Assembly (NCBI GenBank): GCA_025201705.1
Contig: MU616705.1
Span: forward strand, 1 to 52,175
DNA length: 52,175 nucleotides
Reading direction: 5' to 3'
Source of the DNA: Dissophora ornata
Lineage: Eukaryota; Mortierellomycota; Mortierellomycetes; Mortierellales; Mortierellaceae
The translations under genes and the position numbers were made by a program. The stretch's first letter is position 1. Every line of letters starts with the position of its first letter. Positions 2,730 to 36,713 of this stretch are shown here, in pieces. The notes under the pieces were generated by a model, which was not told the origin of the DNA, searched no databases, and saw only the letters and a list, made by a program, of their open reading frames with translations.

Positions 2730-5700
2730 TGTTGTAGAAACTGGAGTCGCAATGGTGGTGAACATACAAATCCACAGACGAAAAGATCATGATAAATTGC
2801 TTGCCTATCGACGCCAGTGCGTTCCATTGCTGGAGGAACAAGAGAACCAAAGCAAACGGTGGAGTCAATATAAGAAGGACTGGAGATAAATAGAGTGGAG
2901 CAGCGTTTTATGACTAGTCCTGGAGACATTGTGGAGTGAGCACGAGTGTGGCTATTGTAAGTCTAGGGTGCATTACACATTCAGCAGAGATAGACAATAT
3001 CAAGGCTATCTGACACGGTACAATGGAAGCAGTGAGCACAAGTGCTTGTTGCAGCGCGCAGCATTCCTCTGGGTCAAGTCGCAACTGATCTGCTATGGAG
3101 AAAGTAGGAGCAGGGCAGAATAGGGACCGAGTTAAAATGGGTTCATGCAACACGCGACTCTAGCCCTTCGTGTATCCTATCGCTCAGGAATCAGCCCATA
3201 TCATCGAACGAAACGCGAAGCGCTCTTTTCAGGCTACCCCATAATTTTCCAGATGGCCTGATCCACAGCAGGAGCAATTTGATACCATGTAACGATTTTT
3301 TTTAAACCTCTAAGCTTTTCCCGCCTTTGCCCGCTCCGCTCCTTCCCTCCAGAACCCACAACCCACAACCCAACAATGAACTGTAAATTGTATTTGCCCG
3401 TGGACATTCGGAACATATTCTGACTTAATTGTGCGCAAGTGACATAACGGATGCGTACAGCGTCTAAATCAAGTCGACAAGATTATCGCAATTCGCATCT
3501 CGTAATCGCTGAATTCGGATTGCCCGGTACGATATCATACCTACTGGGATACGTCAACGTCCAAAAAAAAAGAGCGTGTCTCAGCAACACGATTTTTTTT
3601 TCCGCCGCATTGCATAATGTGCAACGTTTGAAACTGTGATCGCCCCTCGTTTCATAAATCAGAGGCTTATGTTATCTATTGCGCATGCCATGCATGTTTT
3701 GTGCTGATGGGATAAATATGAGCAAGCGTGGAAGCAAAAGAAGAAGGCGAATTGTCATTGGGCCGTGTGCTGGACGAAATCAATGCCCAAAGGGCCTTCC
3801 GGCGGAGAGAGAGAGAGAGGGAATTTTTTTTTTTTTGCAAAGGAGTAGTTTCAACGGCTCTTTGGCCGTAATCAAATTAATTTTGGGCGCAAGCAGCGGG
3901 ACTACAAAAAGAATAGGATGAAAGCAACACCATGGAGATTAAAGCGCCGCTGTATGAGAAAACAGACAAAAGACTTGCTTACATTGTCATGCAGGCTGGC
4001 CGTGATAAGACCCTCCCTGCAGACGGCGCAGCGTATGGCTTTTCTTTGGGTCAAAAATAGATGGGACTCTGGAGAAGCCTCTGCCTCAAGGCGTGAGTCC
4101 CCAATCGATGCTATTCGACGACGATGGTCTCAGTAGCTACACGGGCTATCGCCGCGCACGCCGATTTAGGTTAGCTTTGTTGAACAGAAAGGCACCATCG
4201 GTTCTGGGGTGATAGCTAGAAAGTCAAGACCCTCTCCAGCTGACAACGATAACCGACAGGTGGTGTACCCAAGCAGGTCTCGTGTACCGTACCTCTAATT
4301 AAGGATATTTTCCTCGGTAAATTTGACAGTAGAAGCGCTGGAAACTTCGTGTATCCATGTAGACAACCACGCGTGGCCTTGACATATCCCTGTTGTCAAA
4401 ATCTGTTTTTTTTCCCCCTTTGATTCACCTCCGTGTGTTATCTACTCCTATTTTACTTGGACATTCTAGACCACGCAGTGTGTACACACATTGAAGAAAA
4501 CGATGCATATTAGCACTAGTACTTGTTTAGATTTGTATGCGTTGGGCCAGTTCGCTTGTTTCGAAAGAGGACCCTGACCCGCTTTTTTTTTTCTTCGATC
4601 TAGTCCAAAGCTAGTCCTGCAGACCAAGCGTATAAAGAAGTCTTGGAGCAAGCTTTCAGTCAGTGCGGGACGCCCAAATGTAACAGGCATGATTTTGATC
4701 GCATCAAAGCACTCCAAAGAGGAGAACAAATAATTTTTGCATTCACCAGCGGCGGAGGTGCAATAAGGAGGCCAATGGGATATTTCGATCTTGGACCGTT
4801 GCTTGGTCTTTGGATCATTGTCCCGCACGCCTCGAAACCTGGCTCGCTGTAGAATTGATATCATCCGCTCTCACATTCTGTGCCATGAACACAAAGACTG
4901 TCAGCACGCCCTGCTGGCCTTACGAGAACCGCAATCTACACGAAAAGAATTACAGCCCAACTGAATGTATATCTAAATCATGGCGCCATCCCTTTGGTGC
5001 TATTTTTTTGTTATTGTTGTAGTAGTGCCCATACTAGCCCGGTTATGCCCCTCCTTCCATGAGGTTATGCATGGGTATGAGGATCAATGGCAAATGAAGT
5101 TCAGCAATCGACGACAAAACATGGTTCGGACATGGATGCGTGGTTATTCGGCGTGCAGTCAACCAAATGAAGAGTAAAAATAACATGGGCCTTGGAAGGC
5201 GAACAGCCCATACGGGTGCTAATTTTTTTTATTTTTTCTGCGGTTGAGCGGCTCCTCTAGACTGCCGATGCCGATGAATTGCTCAAGAAAAAGAAAGGAA
5301 AAGAAAATAAGAACAGAAGGGTACATGTACGTTAGTCAACCCTTCGGTACCGCGATTGTCATTATGGAGACCCGTTGGTTGGCTGACAAAGAAAAAGAGA
5401 AACGGCGGTCCATGAGCATAGATAGACAGACACACAGAGGATAGACAGGTGGATAGACCACTGTAGACGAGCAATTGGGATACAAGCTTGCTGCGACTGC
5501 ATTCGCGTATTTATGGGATCAAGTGCATGCAGGGCTATCGCGATGTCGTTACCGAGCTGGCGCAAAGTCGAGAGCCGCGATGAGGGTGCACAACCACAAA
5601 ATTGCGTAACAAAAAAAAAAAAAAGCCCTCGTTCACTGTATTGGACTCGAACAGCGAAATGCATGTACAAAATATCCGTGTGGAAAATATTTTTGACGAA

Positions 5701-5757
5701 TGAATTGCTACTGAGTGCAATTTGCGGTATCACTTTAGATATTAGGTTCCACCTCGT
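2730..5757. other. Gene-poor intergenic region, about 3 kb
   Basis: No open frame here has recognisable domains, an intact start with good context, or believable splice sites. The stretch is full of A/T homopolymers (for example near 3299, 3567, 3591, 3824, 4410 and 5223) and a short GA microsatellite near 3806. It separates the divergently transcribed allantoicase fusion and the secreted protein gene, so it holds both promoters. I see no transposon termini or tRNA. Confidence 0.55.
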
Positions 5758-5759
5758 AG

Positions 5760-5890
5760 TCTATATAAACCTTGACGCCCTCCCTCTCGCTTCCTTCTTG
5801 CATCTGACTTTTTTCTCACTACTTCTTTCCTCATTCCCATCCCTCATCTCTCGTTCCCTTTAACTCGTTCGTTCTTGACTCGCACCCTTT
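5760..5890 (+). promoter_or_regulatory. TATA box and pyrimidine-rich leader of the secreted coiled-coil gene
   Basis: TATATAA at 5762-5768 is followed by about 100 nt that are almost all C and T, running to the 5' leader of the next gene. This TATA plus CT-rich leader layout recurs in front of other genes in the window, so transcription probably starts a few tens of bases after the TATA box. The stretch TTTGACTCGCACCC is repeated in tandem just after it (about 5874-5901). Confidence 0.6.
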
Positions 5891-5978
5891 GACTCGCACC
5901 CTTTGCTCGCCTGCCATCGCCTCTTCTTCTGCCGCTCCACGTCTCTCTCACACACACATCACGCACATATACATCACC

Positions 5979-6845
5979 ATGACACGAACTGCACCCCCAC
6001 CCCCGACCCTGAAAATCAAGACTCTCTTCACACCTTCGACCTTTGTCTGCTTGCTGGCCCTCTCGCTCTGCAGCACCCCAACCTCCACCAACGCTCTCCC
6101 CATCTCCTCTTCATCATCCTCAATACCAGATCAGACCAAGGACACCACCCTCGCAATAGACACCACATCCACAGATTCGCCGCTCGCCCCTGCTCCACCA
6201 CAAAGCTCGCCCTTTCGCACCGTCTCACGCCCAATCACCATCCAACTCGATCTCAACACCCCTTCAGGAGATTCCTTCACACGATTGATCGATCGCACAG
6301 AGAAACAGGAGCAGTTTCTTCGTGAGCGTGAACAGCAAGATCAAGAAGAGCTCTTTCGCCTACAACAAGAGCAAGACGAGCTTGAAAAGTTCGAGCAGGA
6401 ACGAGACCAGCTTCTCGACAATCAAGAAGAGGAGCAACAGGACCAGGATCCCGAAACCGTCAGGAGGCGCCAAGAAGAATCCTTGGGTCTCTGGATGACT
6501 GACGCAGAGTTCAAGGCCTTGAGCCGAGAAGTCAACAGCAATAACGCTGGCAGCGAAGATTGCGAGGGCGATCAGCTCTACCAAAGTGACGACGAGAGCA
6601 TCCTTCTCAACAGAGGCAGCCGCTTCGACCTCTATGCAGAGGATTTCAAGGAGGTTGGAACTCCTGAGAATGGTGACGATAAGATCAAGAACTTTGAGCA
6701 GCGCCAGAGGGGTGACAGGAAGCTTCGTCTCCAGCGCCAGTTGCCGCCATCGGAGGAGGAGATGCTCCGGTGGCCCATCGTCAACCTGAGCCAGTTCGAG
6801 GACCGTCAGGACGAGGTCCAAGACGAGTATGACGAGCAGGCCTAA
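5979..6845 (+). CDS. Predicted secreted acidic coiled-coil protein, unknown function
   Basis: A single-exon gene of 288 aa starts at ATG 5979, which sits in a good CACCATG context; the open frame runs further upstream only from a TTG. Residues about 15-40 are a basic start plus a hydrophobic stretch (FVCLLALSL) ending near NALP, which looks like a signal peptide. A Ser/Thr/Pro-rich linker follows (about 41-90). Residues 105-170 are dominated by Glu, Gln, Asp and Arg in heptad-like order and are predicted here by eye to be a long coiled coil. The C-terminal part is acidic and ends DEYDEQA. No catalytic motif or known domain is visible. It could be a secreted or cell-wall protein; function is not known. 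Confidence 0.75.
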   Translation: MTRTAPPPPTLKIKTLFTPSTFVCLLALSLCSTPTSTNALPISSSSSSIPDQTKDTTLAIDTTSTDSPLAPAPPQSSPFRTVSRPITIQLDLNTPSGDSFTRLIDRTEKQEQFLREREQQDQEELFRLQQEQDELEKFEQERDQLLDNQEEEQQDQDPETVRRRQEESLGLWMTDAEFKALSREVNSNNAGSEDCEGDQLYQSDDESILLNRGSRFDLYAEDFKEVGTPENGDDKIKNFEQRQRGDRKLRLQRQLPPSEEEMLRWPIVNLSQFEDRQDEVQDEYDEQA

Positions 6846-8159
6846 AATGGCTCTTTGCATCCACCTGGACGGACCGGGTTCCTTTCTTGAAACAGAGGCA
6901 GCGCCCCTTTTCCCAGCCGTTCCCCACATTTGCCTCTCCGTTGTTTCCTTGTTCTGCCCCTTGTGCCACAAAAAATCCCTTCTTCAGCTCTTTGAGAGTT
7001 GAGGCTGGAATAAGGGATTTGTTAGCAAAGAACAAAAGCATTCGCTACATTCCTTTTCAATGCATTGCCGGATTATGTATGCCCCTTCCCTTGTACATCA
7101 TATCTTTGTCACAACATCTAAACTCCTATCACCGCATTTTCCTGCACTTTCCTGCCTGCTGTGCCTTTTTCTTTTTTCTTTTGTGTAGCAATCGGTCAAG
7201 GCAACTTGCCTTGACATGTGCGTAATGGCGAAAGATTTTCCCGTCACTACTCACGAACCCCCCCCCCCCAAACCAAAGAATGTTATTGCAGTTTCTCCCT
7301 CCCTGTTATGTCCTTTCACTTTTTGCCGTCAATGGCGCTGTAGTTCTCACACATTGTAAATATACTTCATTTGTTTCCAAATCAAAATCTTTTGCCAAGA
7401 ACCAATGACGGTGGGATAGAAGAGGGCGACCCTGCTCACAAATAATAAAATATCGCAAACGATATTCTAGACACCCAAGCAAAGCATGAACGTAATCAAA
7501 TTGGCGCTAACCAAGCTTGAAAGAAAAAAAAAGGGCCCACAGTCGAATGAAATTAACTTTGCGCGTGCACGCGACCCCTCTCGACATTACGAAAGGAAGA
7601 ATCAAGAGGTGAGGCTTGAGAAGGGAGAGTGAGACAAGGGAAAATATTGGGCACGGGTGAACAAGATGCACATCAATTTAATAAGCAAATCGGCACAGGA
7701 CCAAGGAGCAAGGTTATGCCGGAACCATGAAATAAGCAGGGCACAGGGGGAAATGCGTGATTTCTGTTTTTGCCAAAATGACGCCCTGTGATGTCGTATG
7801 CCTTGGATCTTGCTCCGTCAGTACTTTGTTGACACTGCGCACTTTGCTAGGTTTGCAGTACTAACAGGGTCTACGCGTGGCTCTCGAGATACTCATGTTG
7901 TTTGGAATGTACTGTGCACATGCCTATTTTCTGCCCAACACGGTACTATACTAAGGGGTACAATTCTACACCAAACGCACCATAAAAAACAACGGGAGAA
8001 ACGGGAGAACCTAGTTTTTTTGCGAAAAGATCTGATAAATCGATAGGGATGACCCCACCTTGGGCCCTTAAAATGGGAAAAGGTCGCAAACGTGTACAAG
8101 ATGCCATTTTCATTCGTTGCACAAGGTTATTTACAATTATCTCTGAACAAGCTGTTACG
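6846..8159. other. Intergenic region with 12-nt C tract
   Basis: The first few hundred bases are probably the 3' UTR of the secreted protein gene. A run of 12 C lies at 7258-7269. The rest has no open frame that I can support. The block is bounded on the right by the 3' end of the minus-strand LRR-like gene. Confidence 0.55.
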
Positions 8160-9068: not shown

Positions 9069-10695
9069 GAAGCGATTGTTTTGCGCAATATCGTCGAGAA
9101 GAGCTGTGATTAGAGCGGTTGAGTGTTGTCAATTTGTCGCTTAGCGGTAAGAGTCTTTACAAGAGTTGAAGTTTCTGTGTAAGGGATGTTGAGATATGGT
9201 CCTAAAATCAATCAAGGACAGAGACACTCTTGACAGTTTTTATACGCGCTCTGCTTTGAGAAATATCCCAGAAAGCCTTTTTCAAGACCTGGGACCTGAC
9301 TGCCCGCTTTTGAACATTCAAGCGCATTAACAGGGATGTGTGGTTTTCCATCTGAACCTATTTGGGGGCCAAACGCCTGGAATACTTGTGGAAAGCAAGA
9401 TTATGGGCCCCAAGCCTTTGAATTCAAGCCTGAATGCCTTTTTTTTTTTTTTTTTAAAAACATTAGGAACATGGCGAGGATAGGTGCTATTCTGGAAGGA
9501 TACTAAGATAGACCATTTCGTGTCTGACATCCTTGACATTGTTCATGTCCATGGCTGGCTGTTGGAGGACAAAAGGCTAGCAAGGCAACGGTTTAGGACA
9601 ACGAAGTTGTTTCATTCTCAGAGAGACAGAAGGCTGCCTTTCAGGTGGACGATAAACCGCATCTATTTCCAAAAAAATCTACGACACGTATTAGGCCCAA
9701 GGATGTGAATCTACGGATTCGACAAAAGTGTGGATGAATGCACCAGGTCTATTTCAAAGAGTGAGGCATACTCCTTGACAAACTCCAATGTCTTTTAATA
9801 GTGATGGATTTGTAGTAAGCTGCTATAAGCAACAGTGAGAATGCGATATTTCGAAATCGAATGGCTCTACGAGGGGGAACTAACGGTGATTGAGCTTGTA
9901 ACATCTTTTCAAAGGATACGCGGTTCGTAATTCCGACGCCGGCACAGCATGTCCACCATATTCTTGCAACGGCGACGTGGTTAGAATTATGTCAGAGAAT
10001 ACACGACGCTCCAAGCCCTGCTACTGGGGCCGCTAGACATTATTCTTTCCCTAGTTCGAAGATCCTTAGACACTGATGCTACCACCACCAAAGTCGAGAA
10101 CGAACGTTTTGCCATCTGGTGAATATACGTAGGGCAGCGCCACGTCTTCTCTGTTGTACCCTTGGATACAGGCCGAGGGCAGCAGCGGAAGATTTGATTG
10201 CTCATTCCAGCCTGCGTTCTCGCATTTCAATCACAAATCCGAAAGTCAGTGTTGGTATTCGCTTTTAATCGTCCCAGGGTCGCGTAAGAGCACCCTCTGC
10301 CCGCCTTTTCCTCCAGCGCGACCCAAATGGGGGATTGCAGTGGGCTTGTCTATAAACCCCCACAAGTTTGCAACATTGCTATCGAGGTATTGGTTAAATT
10401 CTTCATTTTCCCGTGTGATCCAGACTGATGTGCTCCTTCATCCTTGTGACCCGCCAGCTACCCTACACAGCGAAAGTGTGTACTTGGATGGTGTGGCATT
10501 GTTTGTACCTATTGCGCCGCAGTACGCAAGCTGCCGTGTCAACGGTGCTCCATTTAGTCTGGAGCGTGACAAACTTCTGCCTTCTCCTCACCCCGCTCCA
10601 CGCCATTAAGGTTTTAGAGAGCTATTGAGTTGTGGGTTTAATTCGCCACGTCCCCGGGCGGTTCAAAAAAAGACGCGTCCATGCTTCCTCGTCAT
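9069..10695. other. Intergenic region left of the inverted repeat island
   Basis: A T tract of about 17 bases lies near 9440. A 151-codon frame at 10154-10609 starts only at a TTG and shows no domain, so I do not annotate it. No tRNA, transposase or terminal repeat was recognised. Arm A of the inverted repeat starts at its right end. Confidence 0.5.
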
Positions 10696-11751
10696 GTGCC
10701 AGCTGTCCTGCACTCGTTTGCTTTGTGAGAGTGCACATTGGGTGGTTGTGGCAACTGGTCAATAATGTGCATATCTTTACCACACAATCATTGTGGAAGA
10801 GAGGATATTACTTTGAACTGGCCCAAAATCACTCTCGCTTCTCAATCGTAATTCCACACTCATCTCAATAGAAATGCTTGCGTCGCAAACAAAAATTTCT
10901 TCGCTTAAGGATATTCATTCAACGTCTTCAGCGCCATGCCTCCCATGAGAGGTTCAGTGCGCATATGTAAATCCTATGATGCGCAGACTATCTCAATAAT
11001 GACTCGTTCATCTTAGGCTCATCTTTGGGGAGGATACTAACTAGTATCTGGTGAATTTGGAACTGCGTAGAAACGATAGCTGCAGCGCACAAGGGGATGA
11101 CTGAAAGTCATGCCTAAAAAAAGTACACCCCATCCAAACGAAGTGCGCAACACACTGAAGAGAGGATAAGACTCAAAGAATATATCAAGAGCGCACTGGA
11201 AGAGAAAAGGACGAAATGGATACTTTGTCTTGAGAATACTGCCATGCGCACAATGTATTCACTACATGGATGTATTTCTCAATCTTCAACAGCTCCAAGA
11301 GTGACTCACATGAAATGAAAGAGACTCTTTCCTTTGCGAAATGGCGCATACGAAAAAGGAAACGGTGGCAACAGTGATGCGCTGTAGCGAGTGATGAATT
11401 TAGTCCGCTCGTTTGGCAAGCCGTGATGTCATTATGTCATTATGTCATGTGGTGGCAAAAGAGGGGATTTGAAGCTTTCGCCACTGTCTGTGGGAAATTG
11501 GAGCAGCAGTACAAAGTGCAGGGTTCATGTCCTCGTCTGTTCTACACCTTTCTTTCCCTTCCGCTTTCCTCGCCACAAGCTGCTCTCTTTCCATCGCACC
11601 CCTCTTCTCATTCCTGGTTAGTGTGGAATCGCCGCGCTCGCAAAGCATGATTCTGCTTTGACACCCTTGCGCCCAATGACAGTTGTGTCACGAAGCTTGG
11701 GCTCCATCACCATGCACTAACGCATCCCTTTACCTTTGTTGTCTGCTTCTT

Positions 11752-11761
11752 TGATATAAAA
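11752..11761 (+). promoter_or_regulatory. TATA box of the arm A gene
   Basis: GATATAAAAC lies about 70 nt upstream of ATG 11825. The corresponding place in arm B (about 21763-21772, minus strand) reads GATATCAAAA, so the TATAAA core is broken there although nearly all surrounding bases are the same. Confidence 0.6.
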
Positions 11762-11824
11762 CAACTCTCATACCTCGGCCACGGCGTGTCTCTGGTACAG
11801 TTCCGAACAATCACATTTTCGATC

Positions 11825-12304
11825 ATGGGCGCCGACTGGTACAGATTCGTTTCAACTACCATTGTCGCCATCCCTATTCCGAAGGAGGCCTTGAAGTCCG
11901 AATTCGAAAAGGAAGGCTTTAGAATCATGACCATCAAGAGCGAAGCCTTCGACGAATATGATTCCGAATTTACCGAATATCACGGGGCCTTCCTCTGTCT
12001 CGAAGATACTGTTAAAATAAGAACTTTGTTGGAGGTGATCGGACCATACGAAATCGAGGGACATGTCGCCCAGAGCAAAAGAATAGAGCGCTTCGACAAG
12101 TATCTTCCAGACGATGTCAAGGATACCTTGATCAAAGAGTACGAGTCTTTCGTGGGGGAGAAACCAGAGTTCGCCCCTGGTTTCTGGATGGTGTCCTGTA
12201 CGTCGGGCTACCATATTGATTTACACTCAAAATGGGCCATGGGATCAGAGGACAAGTTGGCATCAAAGAATTCTGAGCGATTCGATTATGAGCTGAAGAT
12301 GTAG
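11825..12304 (+). CDS. Unknown small protein, arm A paralogue (159 aa)
   Basis: The ATG at 11825 has a strong context (ATCATGG); the open frame extends upstream only from a GTG. The protein starts MGADWYRFVSTTIVAIPIPK and contains FWMVSCTS and YHIDLHSKW. It has no signal peptide, no membrane segment and no domain I recognise. It is acidic overall with many Lys/Glu positions. A paralogue of 158 aa sits in the opposite orientation in arm B. The first 39 codons (about 120 nt) are identical at DNA level between the two, while the rest differs by 27 replacements, one codon indel and only 3 synonymous changes. The position inside a repeat, a nearly fixed promoter and N-terminus, and a changing remainder are all compatible with a recognition or conflict protein, but that is inference. 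Confidence 0.75.
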   Translation: MGADWYRFVSTTIVAIPIPKEALKSEFEKEGFRIMTIKSEAFDEYDSEFTEYHGAFLCLEDTVKIRTLLEVIGPYEIEGHVAQSKRIERFDKYLPDDVKDTLIKEYESFVGEKPEFAPGFWMVSCTSGYHIDLHSKWAMGSEDKLASKNSERFDYELKM

Positions 12305-12657
12305 AAAATGGTTTTTTAAACCAATGACTGTGGGACAATTCTGTCCCGAGTCTGTGAGATGAGGTGCAAACAAACAGCTGCAACAACTGCTACACCACCA
12401 ATGCGCAGCCAACCTCTTGTTAAATAGCAACAACAACCACAATAAAATGGTCCTGAATTTTAACAGGCGATAAAAAAAAAAAGACGCAGTATAATCATTC
12501 CCTTTGTGCGCGAATTGGATTAAAGCAGACCGATTACAACAGACAATAACTGGCCTTCCATAGAACCGCCAAGATTTGCACTAAGACCCAATGAAGATGA
12601 CAAGTCAAGAGGATCTGTTTCCACAATGCATAATAAATGCTCTGTCTACAACGTACT

Positions 12658-13166
12658 GTATTGTTGTGGGTGGGTTCAGTAAAGATTTTGTGGATGTTTT
12701 TGTCATCGATGGTGAGCGCACTCTCCGTGATGCCTTCAGCGTGTCCCACAGTATGTCAATGCACGAGAAACACTGCGTTTAAAGTGTGCACTCCTTCAGC
12801 CACGAGAGCCATTTGTCAGCGCGAGATGTTTTAGCTCTGGAGGCTGGAATAGCCACCAACGACAAGAAATCGATCACAAAGCGATCATTTGCATGCGTTT
12901 TCACTCACTCTTTCGCCTCTTGCACAGCTTTTTGGGCTTTTTTTTAGGCTTTCATCTTTGGCATGGCATCTTCTACATGTCACCCTTGCTCCCGCACGCT
13001 CTCTCGCTCTCTCCTCTCTCCCTCACACACACCACACATTTACACACCCAGTTCATCCGGCTTGTCTTCCATCACCTTACACCAGTATACAGCAAACAAG
13101 AATCCCCTTCTCCACCTTGTGCCCATACTCTTCCTTCCATCCAAGCATAGTCCTCTCACGCTTGCC
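12658..13166 (+). promoter_or_regulatory. CT/CA-rich leader of the XPG-like pseudogene
   Basis: Right of arm A, bases 12890-13160 form a long pyrimidine-rich stretch with CA repeats, of the same type as the leaders of other genes here. It leads directly into the XPG-like relic at 13167 and is probably its former promoter and 5' UTR. The part before 12890 has no gene I can support. Confidence 0.45.
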
Positions 13167-13760
13167 GTGGGCGTGGAAGGCTTCTGGGCCTTCCTGTCGA
13201 ATAATGGGTTAGAATCCCTCCTTCGATACTGGTCGTCCATTTAAACCCACCTCGGCTCTCTCATGTAACCCTCGGCCATCCGCGTCGACGTCCTTGGGAC
13301 GTGTTTTCTCACAATTCGCTATGCCTATTCCTCATTCCCGATGGAGGTTGCCCACGGTATTCTGGCGAATGAAATATCCAAGTCTGGGTCCCAGGCTTTG
13401 CTGGTGCTGTATCCTGATGGCGACCCCGCTGTCGAGAAGGCCCTCACGACAGTTGCCCGAAAAGAGCGCTGCAAGACGTCTTTGGAATCCGCGAAAACCC
13501 AACTGAGGGAGTTCGAGCAACGCATCAACCTTCGCGTTCGCAAATGGTATTTCTTAGACGTCATCAAGAACTTGAAAGGTGCGTTTTATTGGACCGCGGA
13601 GGCGAGGCGCTCATTTGCACAGTACATGAGGGAGAGGCAGTGGAACGTCGTGGAAAGTCCTACCGAGGCCGACATCGGTACTGCCCTTGATAGCCGGCCT
13701 GCCGACGTTGCCGTAACCCGCGACAGCGATCTTTTGATTTATACGTTGTATGTCCTTTCG
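13167..13760 (+). pseudogene. XPG/FEN1-like nuclease relic
   Basis: XPG/FEN1 enzymes are metal-dependent structure-specific nucleases starting with a conserved Met-Gly N-terminus. Here the N-terminal motif GVEGFWAFL is present, but the expected ATG is GTG (13167). Two in-frame TAA codons follow at 13242 and about 13266 before the same frame continues through AIRVDVLG and on to an I-region-like block. That block has SPTEAD (about 13656) and the acidic cluster TRDSDLLIY (about 13716-13740). A GTATGT donor near 13747 and coding-like fragments to about 14310 suggest the ancestral gene was longer. Loss of the start and the stops make it a pseudogene; a non-AUG start alone could not explain the stops. 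Family assignment is moderately sure. Confidence 0.65.
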
Positions 13761-14576
13761 TAACGTCTACATCAACCAGTGTGTTTCTAAACTTTTAGAT
13801 TGCATCTCTCACGTTTTAGAACAACCACAAAAAAACACTCCTGTCTGACGTGCGTGAAAGCCACAGCGATTCGTCCAAGTTGGTGGTAGCTTTTGTCAAG
13901 AAAGGGGCTGCCGAAGACATTGAAGGTAATTTAATAAGTAAAGGTAAGTGTTGAGAGGAACTGATTCACCTCTGCAACAATAGAGTCAGTCTCAGTCGGA
14001 CCAGAGTCGCTGCTGGAGTCCAATCGCACAAGGAACTTGGGGCTAAACGAGAACTCTGTGGTGCTTGCCAACTCAACCACTTTGACCTCTGAGCAACACA
14101 CAGCGTTGGTGAATTATGGCGAACAACTTGAGTTCAATCATCCGAATTGGTCTTTGTTACTAAAAAGCTTTTTCATTATGTGAGTATAGACAAGGCGAAC
14201 AATGGCGCACTACTATCAGCCACACCATTTTCTGAAGCGACCTCGTCAACCAGCTCTCAGTGCAAGCGCTATCGTCCTCACCAAAGCGCAAAAAAGCAGA
14301 CAAGACCGTAAGCTCAGCAATAAAGTTCACGAATGCGTTATCGATGGCTTCCTCTGACATGTCTGTTATTTGACTATAGTTCACTAAAAAGAACAGTCGA
14401 TCATTGGAAGGACGATCCACATTGTAATTTTACAAGTATTTTTGGGTTTGCGAAAGATGTCTATTACAGAGAGAAGGAGGGATGAAGAAATCAAACAAAA
14501 AAAAATCCAGGCACGGTGGAGAGGTAAATCTTTATTTTGTCTGTTCAAGGAGTACAAGGGTGGCTTTAACTAGAGC
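13761..14576. other. Region between two pseudogenes
   Basis: This stretch may hold eroded 3' parts of the XPG-like relic: a plus-strand piece rich in Ser, Thr, Lys and Arg is seen near 14200-14310. An 86-codon minus-strand frame at 14160-14420 starts from GTG only and has no family signature. A poly-A run lies near 14497. Confidence 0.4.
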
Positions 14577-17500
14577 CTAGGGCCGACATTGTTTCGCTGC
14601 ATGCTCGTCTACCAGGTCATCGCAGCCTGTTCCAGCTTTCGCTCGACGCGCTTGAGACGATCTAGCACGTTCACGTGCGCTTCTGGGAAGAGGTCGTGTA
14701 TATTGTTCTCGTCGATCTTGAGCGAAATGCACTGCGGGCTCGTCTTGCGATCCGAGAAATCGCTCGCTTCTTCTCACGTCCGCAAATGAGCCCTCCAGAC
14801 TCGGTAGCTCAGTTGGATAAGCAATGACAACGCCAAGGTACTTCTTAGGAGAAACGGTACAAAACGTCTCGAGCTTGCTATCGCCGAGATGGTGTTGAAC
14901 TGCATCGGCCTTGACCGTTGCGAACGCCTTCAAGACTTCCCCTGAATCCATGAAAACCGGCAGTTTCAGTTTGATGAAAACAGGACACAAACCACGTTTG
15001 TCGAAACGGAGGATAAACACAACGTCAGGTCCAGAAGGCGTCTCGGTAGGATAGTAAAACGCTGGAACTTGACTGTCATCGTTACGTGAGCGTGAGCCAT
15101 TCTCAACGTGCGCCTCCAAAAACTCGCTCAGCAACATACCACTATGGTCAATCCCAAGCATATGCTCCCCCAAACCGACAATCGTTGCTCTGCTATTCAA
15201 AAGGCTGTCGCAGCGCACCGCATCCAAGGGGACCGGAGACGTCTCAGACAGGATCTTGTTGTGGAAAACGTGAACCAGGCTAGGCAGGACCGCCATCTCC
15301 CATGTGGACCCAAGGGCTGAATCATTTCTTGATTCCAAACTGAATAGGTTGCAGATCGCGCCATGAAAGTCTGGATCACCCTTGCGAAAGTAGTTCACCG
15401 TAGCACGCAATGCAAACGGCTCATCCAGGACTGTCCTGTTTGTTTGGCCAGCAACATTCATGATTCGCCCAACAGAGGCCTCCACTAGAGGTGCCTCCTG
15501 AGCATTAAGAATCACGGGGTTCCCATGCAGGTAATGTTCCAGCACAAAGAGTTCAAGGACGGTCTGGATTCGTTGATACTTTGCGTACTGTGATGGATGT
15601 GTCGCGACATGGTGGAGCATTCGATCGATGTCGTAGGGGATGTTGCCTTTGCCTTGAAATTGGCGATCGATCGATATCAGCGTCTCTTCCGTGTCCTGGA
15701 TCGCCTTCTTCCAATCACTTTGACCGTTCCTGGCACATATCATGCGCTCTATCAGTATAAGTTGAAAAATGAATTAATCCGTTGCTTTCTTCTCGTTCGT
15801 TGCCTCCTAGATCGGGGCATTGGTGACCCGTCGAACGTTCTTACCAATGGCGGAAACAATGGGCCTAAAACGCCCACGCAAGCGTGCAAAGAGCTCTGAC
15901 ACCGCTTCGCCAGGCACACGAGTGTCGAAAATTCGTCTGGCCTGCTCATCAGGCAACGAGCGACGCACAAGATCTCGGTAGATCTGGACTTGTTCGAGCG
16001 ATTCCCAGCCTTGGAAATCGGTGAATGGTCCTAGATTTTCTGTGTAACCTTTGGTGACAGGAGCCGAGTCTTCGAGCCAATTCATATCGAGAATGCAGAG
16101 GCCAGTCCCACAAGTTACTACGCAAAAGTGGCTGTGGTCGCCAGAGATCTGGTAGAACCCGTGAACCAAGGGGGAGAGGACTGGTCGCTGGTAGTCGTCA
16201 AAAGAAGAAGCGGCGACTTGTCCCTCAGAAGGAAAAGCTCCAAAATCCATCTTGCCAAAGTTTTGCGCCTCGTCAACGACCAGAAGGATCTTGTAGCCAA
16301 CGTGCTGGGAGGGCGTGCTGAGGGTCAACTTTAGCAGGCGTTGGCGGAATTCGGAGAATCGTGTTCGAACGAAGCTGCCCATGAGGCTGATGTCGATAGA
16401 GTGACGGTGGATCACATCCGCAATTGACATGAACAGCAAGGCAAACAGGTCTTCGAAACCCAACGCGATGAAGCCAACTTGCATTAGCATTCAGTGTTTG
16501 CAAGTGAATGTCGTTCCTTTACGTTCCGCGATGTTGAGACACTGCTCTAAAATGATAACACGACTAAGAACAAGACCCAGCGCCAGGATGTGGATGTTGC
16601 TCTCGAAGTCACGATTCCCGTATCGCTTCGTTCGGTGAACCAATTCAAGAAAGCGGGCAAGATCCTGGGAACCTCGATCCGTGGTGCTTCCATTGAAATA
16701 GAAGCCCCAGTTCTTGGAAAGCATCTCGATCGCCGTCCTCGTTTTCCCACACCCAGAAACGCCAAAGAGTTGTAACAGGGGAACAGCTCGTCCACGAATC
16801 TTCCCAAGCGCCTTGTCGGCAGTGCTGGGAGGGTCCTGCCTCTCGGTCGATTCTGGCAAGTCAAGGAACAGTAAGGTTAGTCGATCCGATTGTTCGGTCG
16901 ACAGTGCGCGAGCGGCAACAAAGGGCAATCCCCCAAGTGGTCCGCCAGTTGTCGGAATTAGCTGATCGGCAGTCAGGAATCGAACGAGCCTCGTGTAGTT
17001 GGCCGAAGCAGGCGCAAAGAACCCATCCTCAATCTTTGAAACAAGTTCCTGCCATTTCTCATCTATTTGAATGTTAATAAGAGCACAGTTAGTATCACTC
17101 CACTTCATCGGGCATCAGCATTTTGATTATAAGGCTTGGCTTCACGTAGGATTGCAAACCAAAGGCGATGCGATAGACTTACCCGACAGCGGTTTACCAG
17201 GACGAGAATAATCCGGGGAAGGAGTAGAGGCTCGAGCAGGAATAGGTGCATGGACTATGTTGGTGCAAATGGATGAGTGATTCAGGTTAGTCTATGGGCA
17301 AGAGTAGACGATGCAAACAGCAAGTCAAACGCGTGTGTGCAGCACCTTGAGGAGGGCGCTGGACAATGATGTACGTGTTGTCATCGGGGCTTTTGGGGAA
17401 CAGGTTAGAAAGTAAGGTCCTTGGTTTGTTCAGCTCTGTCTTATCGACGAGGGCACCAACGGTTGTCGCAGAACAGTCGGGGATGGAGACGCGCCAGAGG

Positions 17501-17661
17501 GTGAGCTGTGATGTATCCACATCGCTAAACGCGACAGTCATTTTGGCCTTAATAAGGTCCTTGAGATCGCCGACATCCGAGGCTTCATCAGCCTTGACTT
17601 TGAGGGTGTTCGACAACGGTTCGCCGTTAATGAGGCAGAGCAGGGTGAGTGTCTTTGCCAT
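14577..17661 (-). pseudogene. Crinkler-type NTPase-nuclease gene, decayed (CRN1)
   Basis: CRN proteins combine a ubiquitin-like header with a P-loop NTPase and a nuclease or kinase tail, and are viewed as host-acting effectors or intergenomic-conflict proteins. The proposed exons are 17661-17346 (header, LTLLCLINGE), 17254-17183 (mini-exon VHAPIPARAS), 17062-15845 and 15748-14577. The NTPase shows Walker A GVSGCGKTRT (about 16755), Walker B ILLVVDEAQ (about 16280) and CVVTCGTG. The tail has the PD-(D/E)XK-like block FYYPTETPSGPDVVF, but the place of the Q/E in the D...QxK motif reads FIKLK. Three lesions are seen: an in-frame TGA at 16493-16491 where the paralogue has Trp; this catalytic-site change; and a frameshift near 14770, after which a conserved-looking tail continues in another frame to about 14625. 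The first donor is an unusual GTGCTG. It is probably not functional full-length. Confidence 0.8.
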
Positions 17662-17813
17662 GGGTGAGTGTGTGGATGGATGAATGAAGAGTGAAAGAGT
17701 GAAAGAGTGTTTGTCGAACAAATACCGGCTGTGGTGGCATTCGGTGAGAGAAGGAAATTTGGGCCAATCGGATTTGAGCTGTTTTCACCACTGTTGCCAC
17801 CGCTTCCACTGGG

Positions 17814-17826
17814 TGCTATTTATTCT
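17814..17826 (-). promoter_or_regulatory. TATA-like AGAATAAAT of CRN1
   Basis: On the minus strand AGAATAAATAG lies about 160 nt before the CRN1 start codon. The second CRN gene has AGAATAAATGG about 225 nt before its start (near 36940). The shared AT-rich word is a likely TATA equivalent. Confidence 0.4.
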
Positions 17827-18437
17827 CTGAGCAAGAGCCATCCAAAAAGTTGGAGCAGCTGAGCAAGGATAAGATGAAACCCTTGATTGCGACACCGAGA
17901 ACTTCAGCCTCGTCGTCGGTGCCGAATGGATGAAATTCGACTTTATCAACTCGCAGACCTGTAAAGACGACGTCGCAACTTTGACGCAAAGACGAAAAGT
18001 CGAAGCGTTATCACTGCCCGCAGTGCGGGATGCCTTATGTCCGAGGCCAACCTGAGGGTGAGCAGATGTGAGATCGGCGCCATCGTGCAGTCCTCGGTAC
18101 AAGAACGAAGTTGGTTGTGTTCGGCGGCAAAATCTGACGGACGCCACTAACCTCTTAAATGGGCTTTCCCACCGTTTCGTTACTATTCATGCGTTTGCTT
18201 CCACCAGAACCATCTCCATCGACTGAAGTTGATCGCATCCCTCCCCCCCCCTTCATTCCCAGGACTCGCCTCCATAACCGCCCTTGCTTCCCAAGATGAC
18301 AAAAGTAAAGGAGGAACACGGAACCACAGAAGGAAGCTGTCACGCGAAAAAGGGGTCACCGAGTTTACCCAGGAAAAACCCCCCTCAGAGGAAAAAGAAA
18401 ACTGCTACACGGATAGGATAGAACAGACAAGCAGCAT
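17827..18437. other. Intergenic region
   Basis: No gene recognised. The stretch lies between the CRN1 promoter and the ERGIC2-like relic, with a C tract near 18241. Confidence 0.45.
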
Positions 18438-18443
18438 AAAAAA

Positions 18444-18481
<38 letters not shown>
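18438..18481 (+). repeat. Long poly-A tract
   Basis: Seven A, one T and then 36 uninterrupted A end 17 nt before the ATG of the ERGIC2-like relic. A tract this long directly upstream of a start codon is unusual. It does not mark a processed copy, because the relic behind it still contains introns. Confidence 0.9.
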
Positions 18482-18482
<1 letters not shown>

Positions 18483-18498
18483 GAATCCCCCGCAGAAA

Positions 18499-20018
18499 AT
18501 GCAGTTTAAGGAGTTTGATGCGTTCCCAAAGGTCGAGTCAGGATTTGAGAAGCGGACAGGATCCAGTGGTATCCTGACATTGGTCATCTCGGCGATTCTC
18601 TGTGTCCTCGTTGTGCGAGAGATCAGAGACTACATGGCCATTCGCAACGACTACAAGTTCTTGGTCGACCCCTTGGTCAACCACGAGCTCCAGATCAACC
18701 TCGATATCACGGTGGCCATGCCCCTTGCGATGGTACGGATAGGATAAATGACCTAGTTTTTTATTTTAGTGTCTGGAAAAATGTACACTCGTCCATGAAT
18801 CTAACACGGACTGTATGGTTTTTTTTTGTGCATGCGTTTGATAGCGTTGACGCTTGATCTTCGGGATATCGCAGAGGTGCAGCTGAGACTTTCGGACAAG
18901 GTCCACAAGATCCCTACAGTATGTGGTTACATATTTTTTTAATAGGCATTGTGCTTTGGACCGTAACAGGGCTCAGAAACTCAAGCGGCAACAAAAAAAA
19001 AAAGGCAGGATCCTCTTTTAAGAAACCGTATATGCAGCTCTGACGCTTTTATGGTTTAACATTGCGCATCTGTTACTCTTTGTAGCACTTCAGTTTGGGA
19101 TCTGCGTCTCATTCGGACAGCATCCGCCAGAAGCCACTCAACGTCCAGAAGCTGATCAGGGCAGCCAGCAGGACTGCTGCCCTGGAGCAGGCATCAAAGC
19201 AAAGTAAGAATATACGAGCATTTTTACCAGAGATTGTTGTCGTTGCTGTTTGTTAAATATTCTTATGGCCGCCGTTCAAATGACTGATCAACTTGAACGA
19301 CTTCTTTTTATTTTATTTTTTTTTTTTGAAAAAAAAAGCAGACACGGACTTCAAGGCTTGCAGGATTGCAGAAAGTTTCGAAGTAAGCAAACTGAGCAGA
19401 AATATGCATATCACTGCTGTTGGACATGGATATGATGTAGCTCATCTCGACCGCCACGGTGCCGTATCATACTGCCGCAATATTTTTTTAACAAAATCGA
19501 TGGATCAGCAATCAAAAAACGTCATCAGTTCTGTTAACCGTTGATCATGTTATTTTCTTTTTATTTTTTATTTTTTAGTGATGAACATGGCCCACAAGAT
19601 CGATGGGAGAACTGTACCCCACTATTGTCAACCCCCTCGACGACAGTTTTGAGATCTCTGAGTCTGCGTTCGAGGCGTTCTAGTACTTCTTGATCGTCGT
19701 TCCTACCATCTGCGTCGACCGATCCAAGGGCTCCCTCTTGGCGAACCAGTACTCCATGAGCGAAAACCGTCGCACGTTTGGCGATGACCAGGTGTACCGG
19801 GCTTGCTCTTCAAGTGCGACTTTGGGTCAATGACTTTGATGATCTCGGAAGAATCCTCAATGTCGTTTGGACATTTATTGGTCCGACTCGCAGGTCTTGT
19901 AGGAGGATACTATGTCACGGCCAGTGTGGCCTACAAGGTCCTTAGTGCCATATATTACGCGTTCAGACCAGAGCAGGCACCTTTGAGGAGGCACAAACGT
20001 TTAAAAAAAAAAAAAAAA
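18499..20018 (+). pseudogene. ERGIC2/Erv41-like ER-Golgi cargo receptor relic
   Basis: Erv41/ERGIC2 is a membrane protein that cycles between ER and Golgi with Erv46. The first segment (18499-about 18735) encodes FKEFDAFPKVESG, a hydrophobic helix (ILTLVISAILCVLVV) and INLDITVAMPLAM. Later coding islands match the family order: LRDIAEVQLRLSDKV (about 18860-18910), HFSLGSASHSDSIR (about 19086), MHITAVGHGYDVAHLD (about 19402), NPLDDSFEISE (about 19625-19665), VVPTICVDRSKGSLLANQ (about 19695) and the second membrane region LLVRLAGLVGGYYVTASVAYK (about 19875). Introns separate the islands. The order is kept, but the frame is broken: a TGA-generating shift near 18852, a shift near 19605-19615, TAG in place of a codon at about 19681, and a further shift before 19800. 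A housekeeping role implies an intact copy elsewhere. Confidence 0.8.
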
Positions 20019-20655
20019 CAGGGCGGATGGACAAGGAAGATGCGGCAAAAGAGTTGTATCTTAACTTTCTTTCACACAACACACTCACAATTCGATACCC
20101 ATTTTCCAACGCATGGCCACTACGACAGAATAACCCCCCCAAATAGCTACAGCGCTGATTTTTTTTTTGAGTGCTACTATGACCCTCCAGCATTGCTTGA
20201 TTGCTGGAAAGTGCTTGCAGGGAAATAAATAACTGGCGAAAACTGCTGATATTAATAGGTGCTGGAAATCTGCAGTAGAAGGCTGTAGACTGCTTACAAG
20301 TTCTGGCACACCAACAAAAGGCTGCGTTGGGAGTCATTCAGCATTATTGAATGAGTACCCGCAATCACAAGCCCAGCAATACTTAGTAGAAAGGCTGATA
20401 ATCTCGGCCTGAGCATCGCAGGAAACGTCGGCATCCCCAACCTGGCAGAGCTTGGCTGCCTCTCCCCCATTCTCTGTCCGCATCATGCCTTGGTCGTGTG
20501 TTCATGTTAGGGTTTTCGTTACCGCGCTAGCACCAGTATGTGAATATCTTCCTACTAAAGGTCTAGACAATGAGTGGGATGAACGATATAGTTTTGTTTA
20601 AAACGACTGCAATGATCAGCGGATACATTACCTGCTGGTGGTGCTTGTTGATATG
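20019..20655. other. Intergenic region right of the ERGIC2-like relic
   Basis: No gene recognised. Short A and T tracts occur near 20003 and 20160. Confidence 0.45.
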
Positions 20656-20844
20656 ACCTATTGAGATGTATATGAAAAGGTTTGCATGAATCTTGACATT
20701 TGCGCCTTTTGAAGTGGTGATTTCTTTTTGCTCTTTCATTCTCTCACTAACCTTCTCACACCATTCACACCATCAATTCTCTATCGCTGCCTCTCTGTTC
20801 GTTTTAGCTTGTTTGGTAAGTAGCGTGAGAATAGCGTTTGACGT
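20656..20844 (+). promoter_or_regulatory. Orphan promoter and leader cut by arm B
   Basis: A TATA-like word (GTATATGAAAAGG, about 20666) is followed by a CT-rich leader with CACACCATTCACACCATC, like the leaders of other genes in the window. No coding sequence follows. The stretch stops where homology to arm A begins (20845), which suggests that arm B was inserted into, or recombined with, a gene just behind its promoter. Confidence 0.4.
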
Positions 20845-22823
20845 AGTACGTTGTAGACAGAACATTTATTTTGCATTGTGGAAACAGATCCTCTTGACTT
20901 GTAATCTTCATTGGGTCCTTAAATCTTGGTAGTTCTGTGGAAGGTCGCTTCTTGTCTGTGGTTCTATTTGACCCCAACTCAATTTTGTTTTAATGGGTCT
21001 GTTTAATCCAATTCATGCACTTGGGGAATGATTACACAGCGCTTTTTTATTTTTTTATTTTTATTGTACTATTTAACAAGAGGCTGGCTGCGCATTGGTG
21101 GGGTGGCAGTTATTGCAGCCGTCTTTTTGTACCTTGTCTCACAGACTCAGGAGAGAATTGTCCCACAGACATAGTTTTAAAAAAAACCAACTGGAGGGTG
21201 CAAGCCATGTGGTTCAAATTTTTCTACATCCGCACTCCATAAGCAAATCGCTTAGACTTCTCTGATGCCAACTTGTCCTCTGCTCCCATGACCCATTTTG
21301 AGTGTAAATCAATATGATAGTCCGACGTACAGGACACCATCCAGAAACCAGGGGTGAACTCTGGTTTCTCCCCCACGAAAGACTCGTACTCCTTGATCAA
21401 GGTATCCTTGACATCGTCTGGAAGATACTTGTCCATGTTGTCTATTCTTTTGCTCTCGGCGGCATATCTTTTGATTTCGCATGGTCCGATCGCCTCCAAC
21501 GAAGTTTCTATTTCAATAGTATCTTCGAGACAGAGGAAGGCCCCGTGATATTCGGTAAATTCGGAATCATAATCGTCGGCGTCGCTCTTGATGGTCATGA
21601 TTCTAAAGCCTTCCTTTTCGAATTCGGACTTCAAGGCCTCCTTCGGAATAGGGATGGCGACAATGGTAGTTGAAACGAATCTGTACCAGTCGGCGCCCAT
21701 GATCGAAAATGTGATTGTTCGGAACTGTACCAGAGACACGCCGTAGCCGAGGTATGAGAGTTTTTTGATATCAAAGAAGCAGACAACAAAGGTAAAGGGA
21801 TGCGTTAGTGCATGGTGATGGAGCCCAAGCTTCGTGACACAACTGTCATTGGGCGCAAGGGTGTCAAAGCAGAATCATGCTTTGCGAGCGCGGCGATTCC
21901 ACACTAACCAGGAATGAGAAGAAGGATGCGATGGAAAAAGAGAAGCTTGTGGCGAGGAAAGCGGAAGGGAAAGAAAGGTGTAGAACAGACGAGGACATGA
22001 ACCCTGCACTTTGTACTGCTGCTCCAATTTCCCACAGACAGTGGCGAAAGCTTCAAATCCCCTCTTTTGCCACCACACATAATGACATCACGGCTTGCCA
22101 AACGAGCGGACTAAATTCATCACTCGCTACAGTGCATCATTGTTGCCACCGTTTCCTTTTTCGCAGGTCACGTATGCGCCATTTTGCAAAGGAAAGAGTC
22201 TCTTTCATTTCATGTGAGTCACTCTTGGAGATTGAGAAATACATCCATGTAGTGAACACATTGTGCGCGTGGCAATATTCTCAAGACAAAGTATCCCTTT
22301 CGTCCTTTTCTCATCCAGTGCGCTCTCGATATATTCTTTGAGTCTTATCCTCTCTTCAGTGTGTTGCGCACTTTGTTTGGATGGCGGTGTACTTTTTTTA
22401 AGCATGGCTTTCAACCATCCCCTTGTGCGCTGCAGCTGTCGTCGCTACGCACAAAGTTCCAAATGCACCAGGTAATAGTTAGTATCCTCCCCAAAGATGA
22501 GCCTAAGATGAACGAGTCATTATTGAGATAGTGTGCGCATCATCGGATTTACATACGCGCACTAGACCTTTCCTGGGAGGCATGGCGCTGAAGACATTGG
22601 ATGGATATCCTTAAGCGAAGAAAGTTCCGTTTGCAACGCAAGCATTTCTATTGAGATGAGTGTGGAATTACGATTGAGAAGCGAGAGTGATTTTGGGCCA
22701 GTTCAAAGTAATATCCTCTCTTTCACAATACTTGTGTGGTAAAGATATGCACATTATTGACCAGTTGCCACAACCACCCAATACGAGCTCCCACAAAGCA
22801 AACGAGTGCAGGACAGCTAGCAC
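20845..22823 (-). repeat. Inverted repeat arm B
   Basis: This 1.98-kb block is the reverse-oriented counterpart of arm A (10696-12657). It carries the 158-aa paralogue at 21224-21700. The portion around the promoter and first 39 codons is nearly identical to arm A, while the segment behind the gene (20845-21223) differs by many substitutions and indels. The arm ends within a few bases of copy C, which reads in the other direction. Confidence 0.85.
21224..21700 (-). CDS. Unknown small protein, arm B paralogue (158 aa)
   Basis: The ATG at 21700 has the same ATCATGG context as its arm A sister; the frame continues upstream only from a GTG. It shares MGADWYRFVSTTIVAIPIPK, EYHGAFLCLED, KYLPDDVKDTLIKEYESFVG and DLHSKW with the arm A protein. 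Replacements include charge reversals such as Lys to Glu, Arg to Glu and Glu to Lys, and one Phe codon is missing near residue 42. The TATA core is altered to TATCAAA, so expression may be weaker or start elsewhere. No domain, signal peptide or membrane helix is visible. It might be a functional divergent copy or one on its way to silence; the intact frame favours the former. Confidence 0.7.
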   Translation of the reverse strand: MGADWYRFVSTTIVAIPIPKEALKSEFEKEGFRIMTIKSDADDYDSEFTEYHGAFLCLEDTIEIETSLEAIGPCEIKRYAAESKRIDNMDKYLPDDVKDTLIKEYESFVGEKPEFTPGFWMVSCTSDYHIDLHSKWVMGAEDKLASEKSKRFAYGVRM

Positions 22824-22826
22824 TAT

Positions 22827-23475
22827 CATTCCACACTCATCTCAATAGAAATGCTCGTGTTGCAAACGAAACTTTCTTCGTTAAAGGATACCCATCCAAT
22901 GTCTTCAGCGCTATGCCTCTCAAAGGAGGTTCAATGCGCGTATGTAAATTCGCATACCATCTTAATAACGACTCTTATACCTTTGGCTTAGTTTCAAGTT
23001 TTAGCCGCTCGGATAACGGGGGAGTGATATAAAAGAAGGCTTCAGACACATCACTTTGGGAAGGAGGCTAATTAGTATCTGGTGCATTTGGGACTTTGTG
23101 CGTAGCGCGGATGACTACAATGCACAAAGGGTGGATCGAAAGTCATGCACAAAGGAACACTGCCATCCAAACAAAGTGCGCAACACTGAAGAGAGGACAT
23201 GCCTCATAGGATATATCGACAGCCCACTGGAAGGACGAGCAAAAGACGAAGGGCTACTTTGTCTTGAGAGTATTGCTGCGCGCACAGTGCGTTCACCTCA
23301 CGAATGGCAGAGGCTTCTGCAGGAATCTCTCTCAATCCTCTACTAGCTCCAAGAGTGACTCACAGAAATGAAAGGGACTCATGTCATTTTGTTATTACGT
23401 CGTGTGGTGGCAATGAGGGGATTCGACGCGTTGGCCACTGTCCGTGGGAAATTGGAACTGCATTATAAAATGTTA
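22827..23475 (+). repeat. Truncated third repeat copy C
   Basis: This copy matches arm A from about 10852 to about 11510 in the same orientation, with lower identity than B to A. It starts at CCACACTCATCTCAATAGAAATGC and ends around GGGAAATTGGAACTGCATTATAAAATG, before the promoter and small gene would begin. It therefore lacks the coding part. With arm B it forms a head-to-head inverted pair with a spacer of about 165 nt between the matching sections. Confidence 0.75.
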
Positions 23476-23858
23476 TCTTGCGCATTCATACGAAGTTTGT
23501 TTATTTCGTGTAATGTCCTCTGGTTCACAATAGACGTGAAGATTCACAGGAAAACGGGACCCGTATGTTTGAAACAGCAAGGATGTTTGAGAGGACAAGA
23601 AAGATTGAAAGAATGAGAAAGAATGAGAAAGGACGAGGAGACCAAGGGAAAAAAAGCTTGGATCGTCAACGCTTGAAAATATCCTTTCGAGAACGCGCAA
23701 GTCCTGTCAAGAGAGCACAAGCCGATCGATTTCAAAAGAGACTTCCAGTAGTAACCGCAAGATATTGGTCAAGACGTTTCTTTGTTTCTAGCCGTCGGAT
23801 TTATTACAATAAACGAGCTAAAAGTTCTCTATTCACAAAAACAAAAAAAAAGCGTTCT
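23476..23858. other. Intergenic region left of ARP8
   Basis: No gene recognised. It includes a purine-rich stretch with repeated AGAAAGAATGAGAAAG-like words (about 23600-23660) and the probable 3' UTR of ARP8. Confidence 0.5.
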
Positions 23859-36400: not shown

Positions 36401-36713
36401 GCTTGATGATGATGTGAATTGCTTTCTTCGGCGGTGCCTCTTCAAAGACGTCAGAGAGGTAATCTGTTGGCAGAAGCTCTTCCTTCTGGTCGATCGCATC
36501 CAGTCGGACCGCAATGTTGCCAGCAACGACAGGCACCGTGACGCGCCAGAGCGCGAGGTTCTTGGCATCCATATTTCCAAATGCGTTGGGGTTCTCTGCG
36601 ATGATGGCTTTCTTGAGCTGGCCGACGGTCTCGTCTGAGGATATCTTCACGGGAAACGCATTCGACGCCAGCTCGCCGCTGATGAGACAGAAGAGCGTGA
36701 GTGTGGTTGCCAT
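33490..36713 (-). pseudogene. Crinkler-type NTPase-nuclease gene with one frameshift (CRN2)
   Basis: Exons proposed: 36713-36392 (header, TLTLFCLISGEL), 36190-36140 (mini-exon VHAPIPVPP) and 36055-33490. Walker A GVSGCGKTRA (about 35730), Walker B FLVVLDEAQ (about 35260) and CVVTCGTG are intact. The nuclease block has FYYPVPSDSGPDIVF and FVQTKL, so the D...QxK core is complete, unlike CRN1. A four-unit repeat of five residues (GYEWE) sits just before it. A Thr-rich run precedes Walker A. The frame breaks near 35490-35510: up to VLQYCLSLA one frame is conserved, from DTFTC another is. Compared with CRN1, about 7 nt are missing, and no splice pair explains the change. It may be a recent pseudogene or a sequencing/assembly error. 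The product would be a nuclear or host-directed nuclease by family analogy. Confidence 0.8.
34141..34200 (-). repeat. Four 15-nt tandem repeats inside CRN2
   Basis: Four exact-length units (TTCCCATTCATAACC on the plus strand, with one base changed in the last unit) encode GYEWE-type pentapeptides. Unit length is a multiple of three, so copy number can vary without breaking the frame. CRN1 lacks the repeat at the matching place. Confidence 0.95.

Follow-up and report, generated by a model that had tools for sequence, protein, structure and literature searches.

The window, that is, the whole stretch of 52,175 nucleotides analyzed here, corresponds to contig C144 in a 31.37-Mb assembly of Dissophora ornata comprising 968 contigs. 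It contains two open reading frames, copy A and copy B, at the coordinates and on the strands reported in the initial annotation; they are oriented face to face, with 9 kb between them. Each copy lies in one arm of an inverted duplication, and the arms, about 2 kb each, show 132 mismatches in 1904 aligned columns. An allantoicase/ureidoglycolate-lyase protein and an RPAP1 protein are also encoded in this sequence; together with the Crinkler headers described below and a negative search for the light-harvesting family, they point to a fungal source. The features discussed in the text are as follows.

10696 to 12657, + strand: arm A, spanning the upstream repeat, promoter, gene, and 3' flank, from the alignment of the inverted duplication
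10831 to 11595, + strand: dispersed upstream repeat, with diverged copies on contigs C113, C20, and C761 and at 22828 to 23472
11115 to 12010, + strand: low-divergence tract with promoter, 5' leader, and codons 1 to 62; 19 of 873 aligned bases differ (permutation P of 0.0002)
11825 to 12304, + strand: copy A, a single open frame for a 159-amino-acid protein; codon usage fits the sense frame
12011 to 12094, + strand: island 1, codons 63 to 90; 18 of 84 bases differ (21%), and all 14 changed codons are replacements
12095 to 12205, + strand: low-divergence stretch, codons 91 to 127; 2 of 111 bases differ (2%)
12206 to 12301, + strand: island 2, codons 128 to 159; 14 of 96 bases differ (15%)
12305 to 12657, + strand: 3' flank belonging to the arm; 46 differences in 318 aligned bases (14.5%), with six indels
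14577 to 17721, - strand: Crinkler-type gene between the arms, in pieces; header at 17359 to 17649 (E value of 8.9e-18)
20845 to 22823, - strand: arm B of the inverted duplication, from the same alignment
21224 to 21700, - strand: copy B, an open frame for a 158-amino-acid protein 83% identical to copy A; codon usage fits the sense frame

The coding status of both copies is supported by codon usage, with a mean codon log-odds of 0.199 and 0.188 in the sense frame and no more than 0.093 in any of the five remaining frames, as scored on a training set of five ORFs, two of which have no Pfam match. Furthermore, in the diverged part of the gene, the codon usage stands above a composition null, with z of 2.2 and 1.8. 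An antisense gene (ORF at 11852 to 12214, z of 1.4) was considered and rejected on the codon log-odds, which favor the sense frame and are to be taken as support rather than proof. Two AlphaFold2 runs returned mean pLDDT values of 37.7 and 35.8.

A codon-by-codon alignment of the two copies reproduced exactly the counts on which the initial annotation was based. Codons 1 to 39 are identical. Of codons 40 to 159, 27 carry a replacement and 3 a silent change, and one codon is inserted or deleted, which corresponds to 36 base differences besides the 3-base indel. The charge-reversing replacements mentioned there are also present and number five (K64E, R66E, E78K, K148E, and E151K), against a mean of 0.9 to 1.8 in neutral simulations (P of 0.001 to 0.025). 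When all charge changes are considered, the 12 observed match the neutral expectation (simulated P of 0.17 to 0.29). Sequencing error could be rejected as the source of the differences, since the 36 differences are clustered and leave a single in-frame indel and both frames open. RIP was rejected as well, as the transitions from A to B are nearly balanced in both directions (25 G-A and 23 A-G; 24 C-T and 18 T-C).

The differences between the arms are distributed unevenly. In the upstream part, 40 of 596 aligned bases differ in the far region and 3 of 136 in the middle region, while the near promoter (11448 to 11824) is almost identical, as had been claimed, with 7 differences in 377 bases (1.9%). 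Two of these, at 11758 and 11762, fall in a stretch that on its motif we take to be TATA-like. Inside the gene, there are 0 differences in the 117 bases of codons 1 to 39 and 2 in the 66 bases of codons 40 to 62, followed by island 1, a second low-divergence stretch (1 difference in the 78 bases of codons 91 to 116 and 1 in the 33 bases of codons 117 to 127), and island 2, beyond which the divergence continues into the 3' flank. Tracts were delimited by a maximal-segment test with 4000 permutations. Over the whole arm, this test recognized, in addition to the low-divergence tract listed above, a high-divergence tract at 12011 to 12584 (77 of 539 bases differing, P of 0.0002). Within codons 63 to 159, it recognized a low tract at 12095 to 12265 (6 of 171 bases differing, P of 0.0002), and the high segment at 12011 to 12094 has a P of 0.091 within codons 63 to 159 and of 0.032 within codons 40 to 159.

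Tracts of low and high divergence therefore lie next to each other in one duplication, forming a conversion-like mosaic. In particular, silent differences number 0 in the 25 silent sites of codons 1 to 39 and 1 in the 23.5 silent sites of codons 92 to 127. As silent and noncoding sites are also alike in the low tracts, recent homogenization fits better than purifying selection. Homogenization of the 5' end by gene conversion or a like process is well supported (19 of 873 against 77 of 539 bases, P of 0.0002 for each); the initial annotation had named gene conversion or recent duplication. Conversion between the arms would be the simplest cause of the homogenized tracts, and patchy conversion leaving two islands is the likely cause of the mosaic as read from one genome without an outgroup. 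When the sequences flanking the duplication were compared by eye, no direct repeat was seen that would mark the target-site duplication of a transposon with long terminal inverted repeats, although the exact limits of the arms are uncertain.

The initial annotation had described a large excess of replacements and took it to suggest that most of the protein is under positive selection. The Nei-Gojobori method (NG86), which splits codons hit more than once, assigns to the whole pair 30.5 differences at 372.6 replacement sites and 5.5 at 101.4 silent sites, corresponding to a dN of 0.087, a dS of 0.056, and a ratio of 1.54 (Fisher p of 0.21). Codon likelihood, applied to two sequences only, gives for the whole pair an omega of 2.28 (p of 0.078 in a likelihood ratio test against an omega of 1) and for codons 40 to 159 an omega of 2.44 (p of 0.059). 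Thus, the dN/dS estimates for the pair are above 1, with omega values of 1.5 to 2.3, but neutrality is not rejected (p of 0.06 to 0.21). When the gene is divided, omega is 8.94 for codons 40 to 91 (p of 0.008, uncorrected and on a segment picked after the data were seen, as were the limits of the islands), 0.51 for codons 92 to 127, and 1.27 for codons 128 to 159. With equal codon frequencies, the corresponding values are 2.24 for the whole pair, 2.27 for codons 40 to 159, and 7.83, 0.48, and 1.17 for the three segments. By NG86, codons 40 to 91 hold 19 replacement differences versus 1 silent difference, and codons 127 to 159 have a ratio of 0.8. Selection acting on most of the protein is not demonstrated by this distribution, where codons 92 to 127 hardly differ, codons 128 to 159 have an omega near 1, and only codons 40 to 91 reach a p of 0.008.

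The number of silent changes expected under neutrality varies with the transition bias and with the placement of the changes. With 36 random changes in codons 40 to 159 that introduce no stop, the mean is 6.2 to 8.0 silent codons, and the probability of 3 or fewer is 0.12 to 0.028; with 32 changes confined to the two islands, the mean is 5.5 to 7.3 and the probability 0.18 to 0.047. Sliding the observed pattern along the gene gives probabilities of 0.068 and 0.017. It follows that, although the count of 27 to 3 stands, its strength as a large excess does not, the neutral expectation being 5.5 to 8.0 silent codons against the 3 observed. Likewise, the argument that neutral drift would have left many more silent changes is not borne out, because the silent deficit is only 2- to 3-fold and 3 or fewer silent codons arise with a probability of 0.18 to 0.017, depending on the simulation settings. 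The bias in favor of replacements is thus moderate and uncertain.

Further comparisons concern the constraint on the diverged part. Codons 40 to 159 carry one 3-base indel, while the 3' flank has six indels (p of 0.056), and among 30000 neutral simulations only 12 to 26% (3674 to 7809) were free of stops, so that the kept reading frame speaks weakly against free drift. The two coding islands together (32 of 180 bases) are not distinguishable in divergence from the noncoding 3' flank (46 of 318; Fisher p of 0.37), and for island 1 alone the p value against the flank is 0.13. On the whole, positive selection on the pair is no more than plausible. All tests that assume independence would be void if the 36 differences arose in a few block events.

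The duplication is surrounded by repeats. The longer pieces of the copies of the upstream repeat are 73 to 83% identical, and the copy at 22828 to 23472 adjoins arm B. At its inner end, arm B meets the terminus of a different dispersed repeat: 17 other contigs match part of 17750 to 20840, 12 of them in its last 165 bases, and three of the latter copies, when aligned, end at 20846 to 20850. Between the arms, a multicopy gene family is represented at 13341 to 13763 (28 matches in the assembly); its XPG_I_2 label is based on a Pfam E value of only 0.13.

In the Crinkler-type gene, the header is accompanied by further pieces at 16491 to 17108 (weak P-loop match, E value of 0.065), 15807 to 16490, and 14577 to 15743, with an in-frame stop or an intron between two of the pieces, and we infer that they make up one gene. 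Crinkler C termini with NTPase and restriction endonuclease-like domains are described as common in the cited part of a review (PMC5289972). Among the profiles searched, none confirmed a nuclease part in this gene. The DNA just upstream of it has an 86% identical relative on contig C787 and shorter ones on C735, and both contigs also carry Crinkler headers. A second header of the window is found at 36402 to 36701. The assembly gave 47 header matches, all above the Pfam cutoff, in a listing that missed the fragment on C113 and is hence incomplete; the same search in 14 control genomes gave zero matches.

Relatives of the pair were sought widely. In the 31.4-Mb assembly, neither a protein search (E values up to 10) nor a DNA search, both limited to scoring the top candidates of a first pass, revealed a third copy. 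No match was found in Pfam at E values up to 10, the Crinkler header PF20147 included, and none in NCBIfam or in PDB sequences. A peptide pattern retrieved 248 stretches from IMG/VR and 361 from bacterial and archaeal genomes, and tblastn confirmed 0 in either set. Phage records gave a single match with an E value of 0.4 covering 32% of the query. The start motif was present at 110 viral loci, of which 44 begin an ORF of at least 60 amino acids; these 44 were compared, and none aligned with an E value better than 0.13. In the fungus's own genome, a third start-motif match, on contig C479, was dismissed as chance, as it lies out of frame within an 853-amino-acid ORF, which presumably resembles a P-type ATPase. 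Rfam gave no match in the region 10500 to 23500, and no literature on the pair was found by title, the gene having no name to search by.

Our preferred reading, to which we assign a probability of roughly 0.45, is that an inverted duplication of 2 kb would have produced two copies of one gene and that conversion between the arms would keep the promoter, the 5' leader, codons 1 to 62, and codons 91 to 127 nearly alike, with codons 63 to 90 and 128 to 159 as two islands escaping conversion. The amino acid differences, most clearly those of island 1, would have been retained by selection because the two proteins are better off with different surfaces, for instance, as alternative versions of a face used for recognition or binding. 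As a component of this reading, selection for difference between the copies is weakly supported. It is quite possible that the same conversion mosaic arose with islands evolving near neutrality because constraint on them is relaxed, in which case chance would account for the small number of silent changes. The probability of 0.18 to 0.047 when the changes are placed in the islands, the likelihood ratio p values of 0.06 to 0.08 for the whole pair and for codons 40 to 159, and a divergence like that of the 3' flank are all consistent with this. However, both frames are kept with fewer indels than in the flank, codon usage in the diverged part exceeds the composition null, island 1 has replacements only (p of 0.008 for codons 40 to 91), and charge reversals are in excess, which favors selection.

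The islands may also stem from a diverged third copy, or an allele, that is absent from this assembly and was the donor in one or two conversions, making the 36 differences nonindependent. Such an origin would suit the sharp edges of the blocks (18 of 84, 2 of 111, and 14 of 96 bases) and the existence of other diverged copies of the upstream repeat, which points to a rearrangement-prone region; we consider it unlikely, given that the searches described above found no third copy and that divergence also extends beyond the gene into the 3' flank. The sole ground for a toxin-immunity reading is the linkage of the pair to the Crinkler-type gene. That the two proteins are self-protection or recognition partners of this gene, diversifying with it, appears very improbable: the header does sit between the arms, and about 1 kb from the upstream repeat on C113 there is a weak header fragment (E value of 2.1e-4; 22.4 bits with a cutoff of 24.6), but linkage alone is weak, only one gene pair was found for 47 headers, so that most Crinkler genes do without a pair, the repeat loci on C20 and C761 do not appear in the header listing, itself incomplete, and four ORFs on C20 have no Crinkler match. 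We give equally little credence to the extended proposal that the arms act as a conversion cassette equalizing expression while two surface patches diverge, with the proteins as Crinkler-tied partners in self-recognition or protection.

If the selection of the preferred reading were confirmed, the locus would offer a small natural example of conversion that keeps regulation and a good part of a protein uniform as selection pulls two short patches apart; the gene concerned has no relatives found here and is a neighbor of one of the Crinkler type. Otherwise, the locus would illustrate how striking a count of 27 to 3 can look when silent changes are only 2- to 3-fold below the neutral expectation.

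The pair belongs to a known kind, namely, inverted paralogues showing a conversion-like mosaic, in this case with two islands of divergence. As presented in the cited part of PMC3924837, a divergence peak persists under gene conversion in the red and green opsin genes, duplicates that are homogenized except near amino acid differences, as would be the case here; selection there is backed by other primates and a known function. Since in our pair divergence drops upstream but the 3' flank, at 14.5%, is as diverged as the islands, again in a comparison without an outgroup, we do not class it as an opsin-type peak. Islands of divergence against conversion are also discussed for the copepod GOT1 genes, in the portion of PMC3728101 referred to here. 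The Crinkler proteins (PF20147) resemble our case through the gene between the arms, although neither protein of the pair carries a Crinkler header. In the het-d/het-e NWD family of Podospora, the section cited of PMC1805685 reports concerted evolution joined to diversifying selection, and these too are fungal paralogues; different from our pair, which matched no Pfam family, they are NACHT/WD-repeat proteins, in whose repeats four codon positions are reported to be under selection. A parallel in layout is AvrPm17 of wheat powdery mildew, an effector pair in inverted segments for which conversion between the copies is inferred (PMC9335242, in the part cited). In the isolates described there, the two proteins of an isolate are identical and their function is established, whereas here 27 codons differ, mostly in two islands, the pair has no relative found, and conversion is read from one genome. 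In both cases, a fungal paralogue pair lies in inverted duplicated segments a few kilobases apart, of 2,300 bp in AvrPm17 and about 2 kb here, with one gene in each.

The upstream part of both arms of the inverted duplication (arm A, 10696..12657, plus strand; arm B, 20845..22823, minus strand) consists of a dispersed repeat, for which inverted pairs are a frequent arrangement and whose longer pieces share 73-83% identity.

Features of the window and repeat copies elsewhere in the assembly
412-2067, minus strand: allantoicase and ureidoglycolate lyase domains in a single open frame
10831-11595; about 21930-22690; 22828-23472: dispersed repeat
C113:45107-47005; C20:4347-6125; C761:9795-10413 (other contigs): the same repeat
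13341-13763, plus strand: gene from a multi-copy family that has 28 matches assembly-wide
17359-17649 and 36402-36701, both minus strand: Crinkler N-terminal headers (sequence matches)
20532-20846: second dispersed repeat, its end coinciding with the inner boundary of arm B

The final 165 bases of the second repeat have matches on 12 other contigs, and the sole domain similarity of the 13341-13763 family is a weak XPG-like match. Across the entire assembly there are 47 Crinkler header matches, the two in the window included, and several of the 47 are interrupted by stops. A weak header fragment also lies about 1 kb from one C113 copy of the upstream repeat. The DNA at 17750-19333, 5' of the Crinkler-type gene located between the arms, shows 86% identity to C787:1-1636, on a contig that likewise carries a Crinkler header.

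Among the few differences between the promoters of the paired small-protein genes, a TATAAAA-like stretch of copy A (11755-11765) reads TATCAAA at the equivalent site of arm B; expression of copies A and B may differ.
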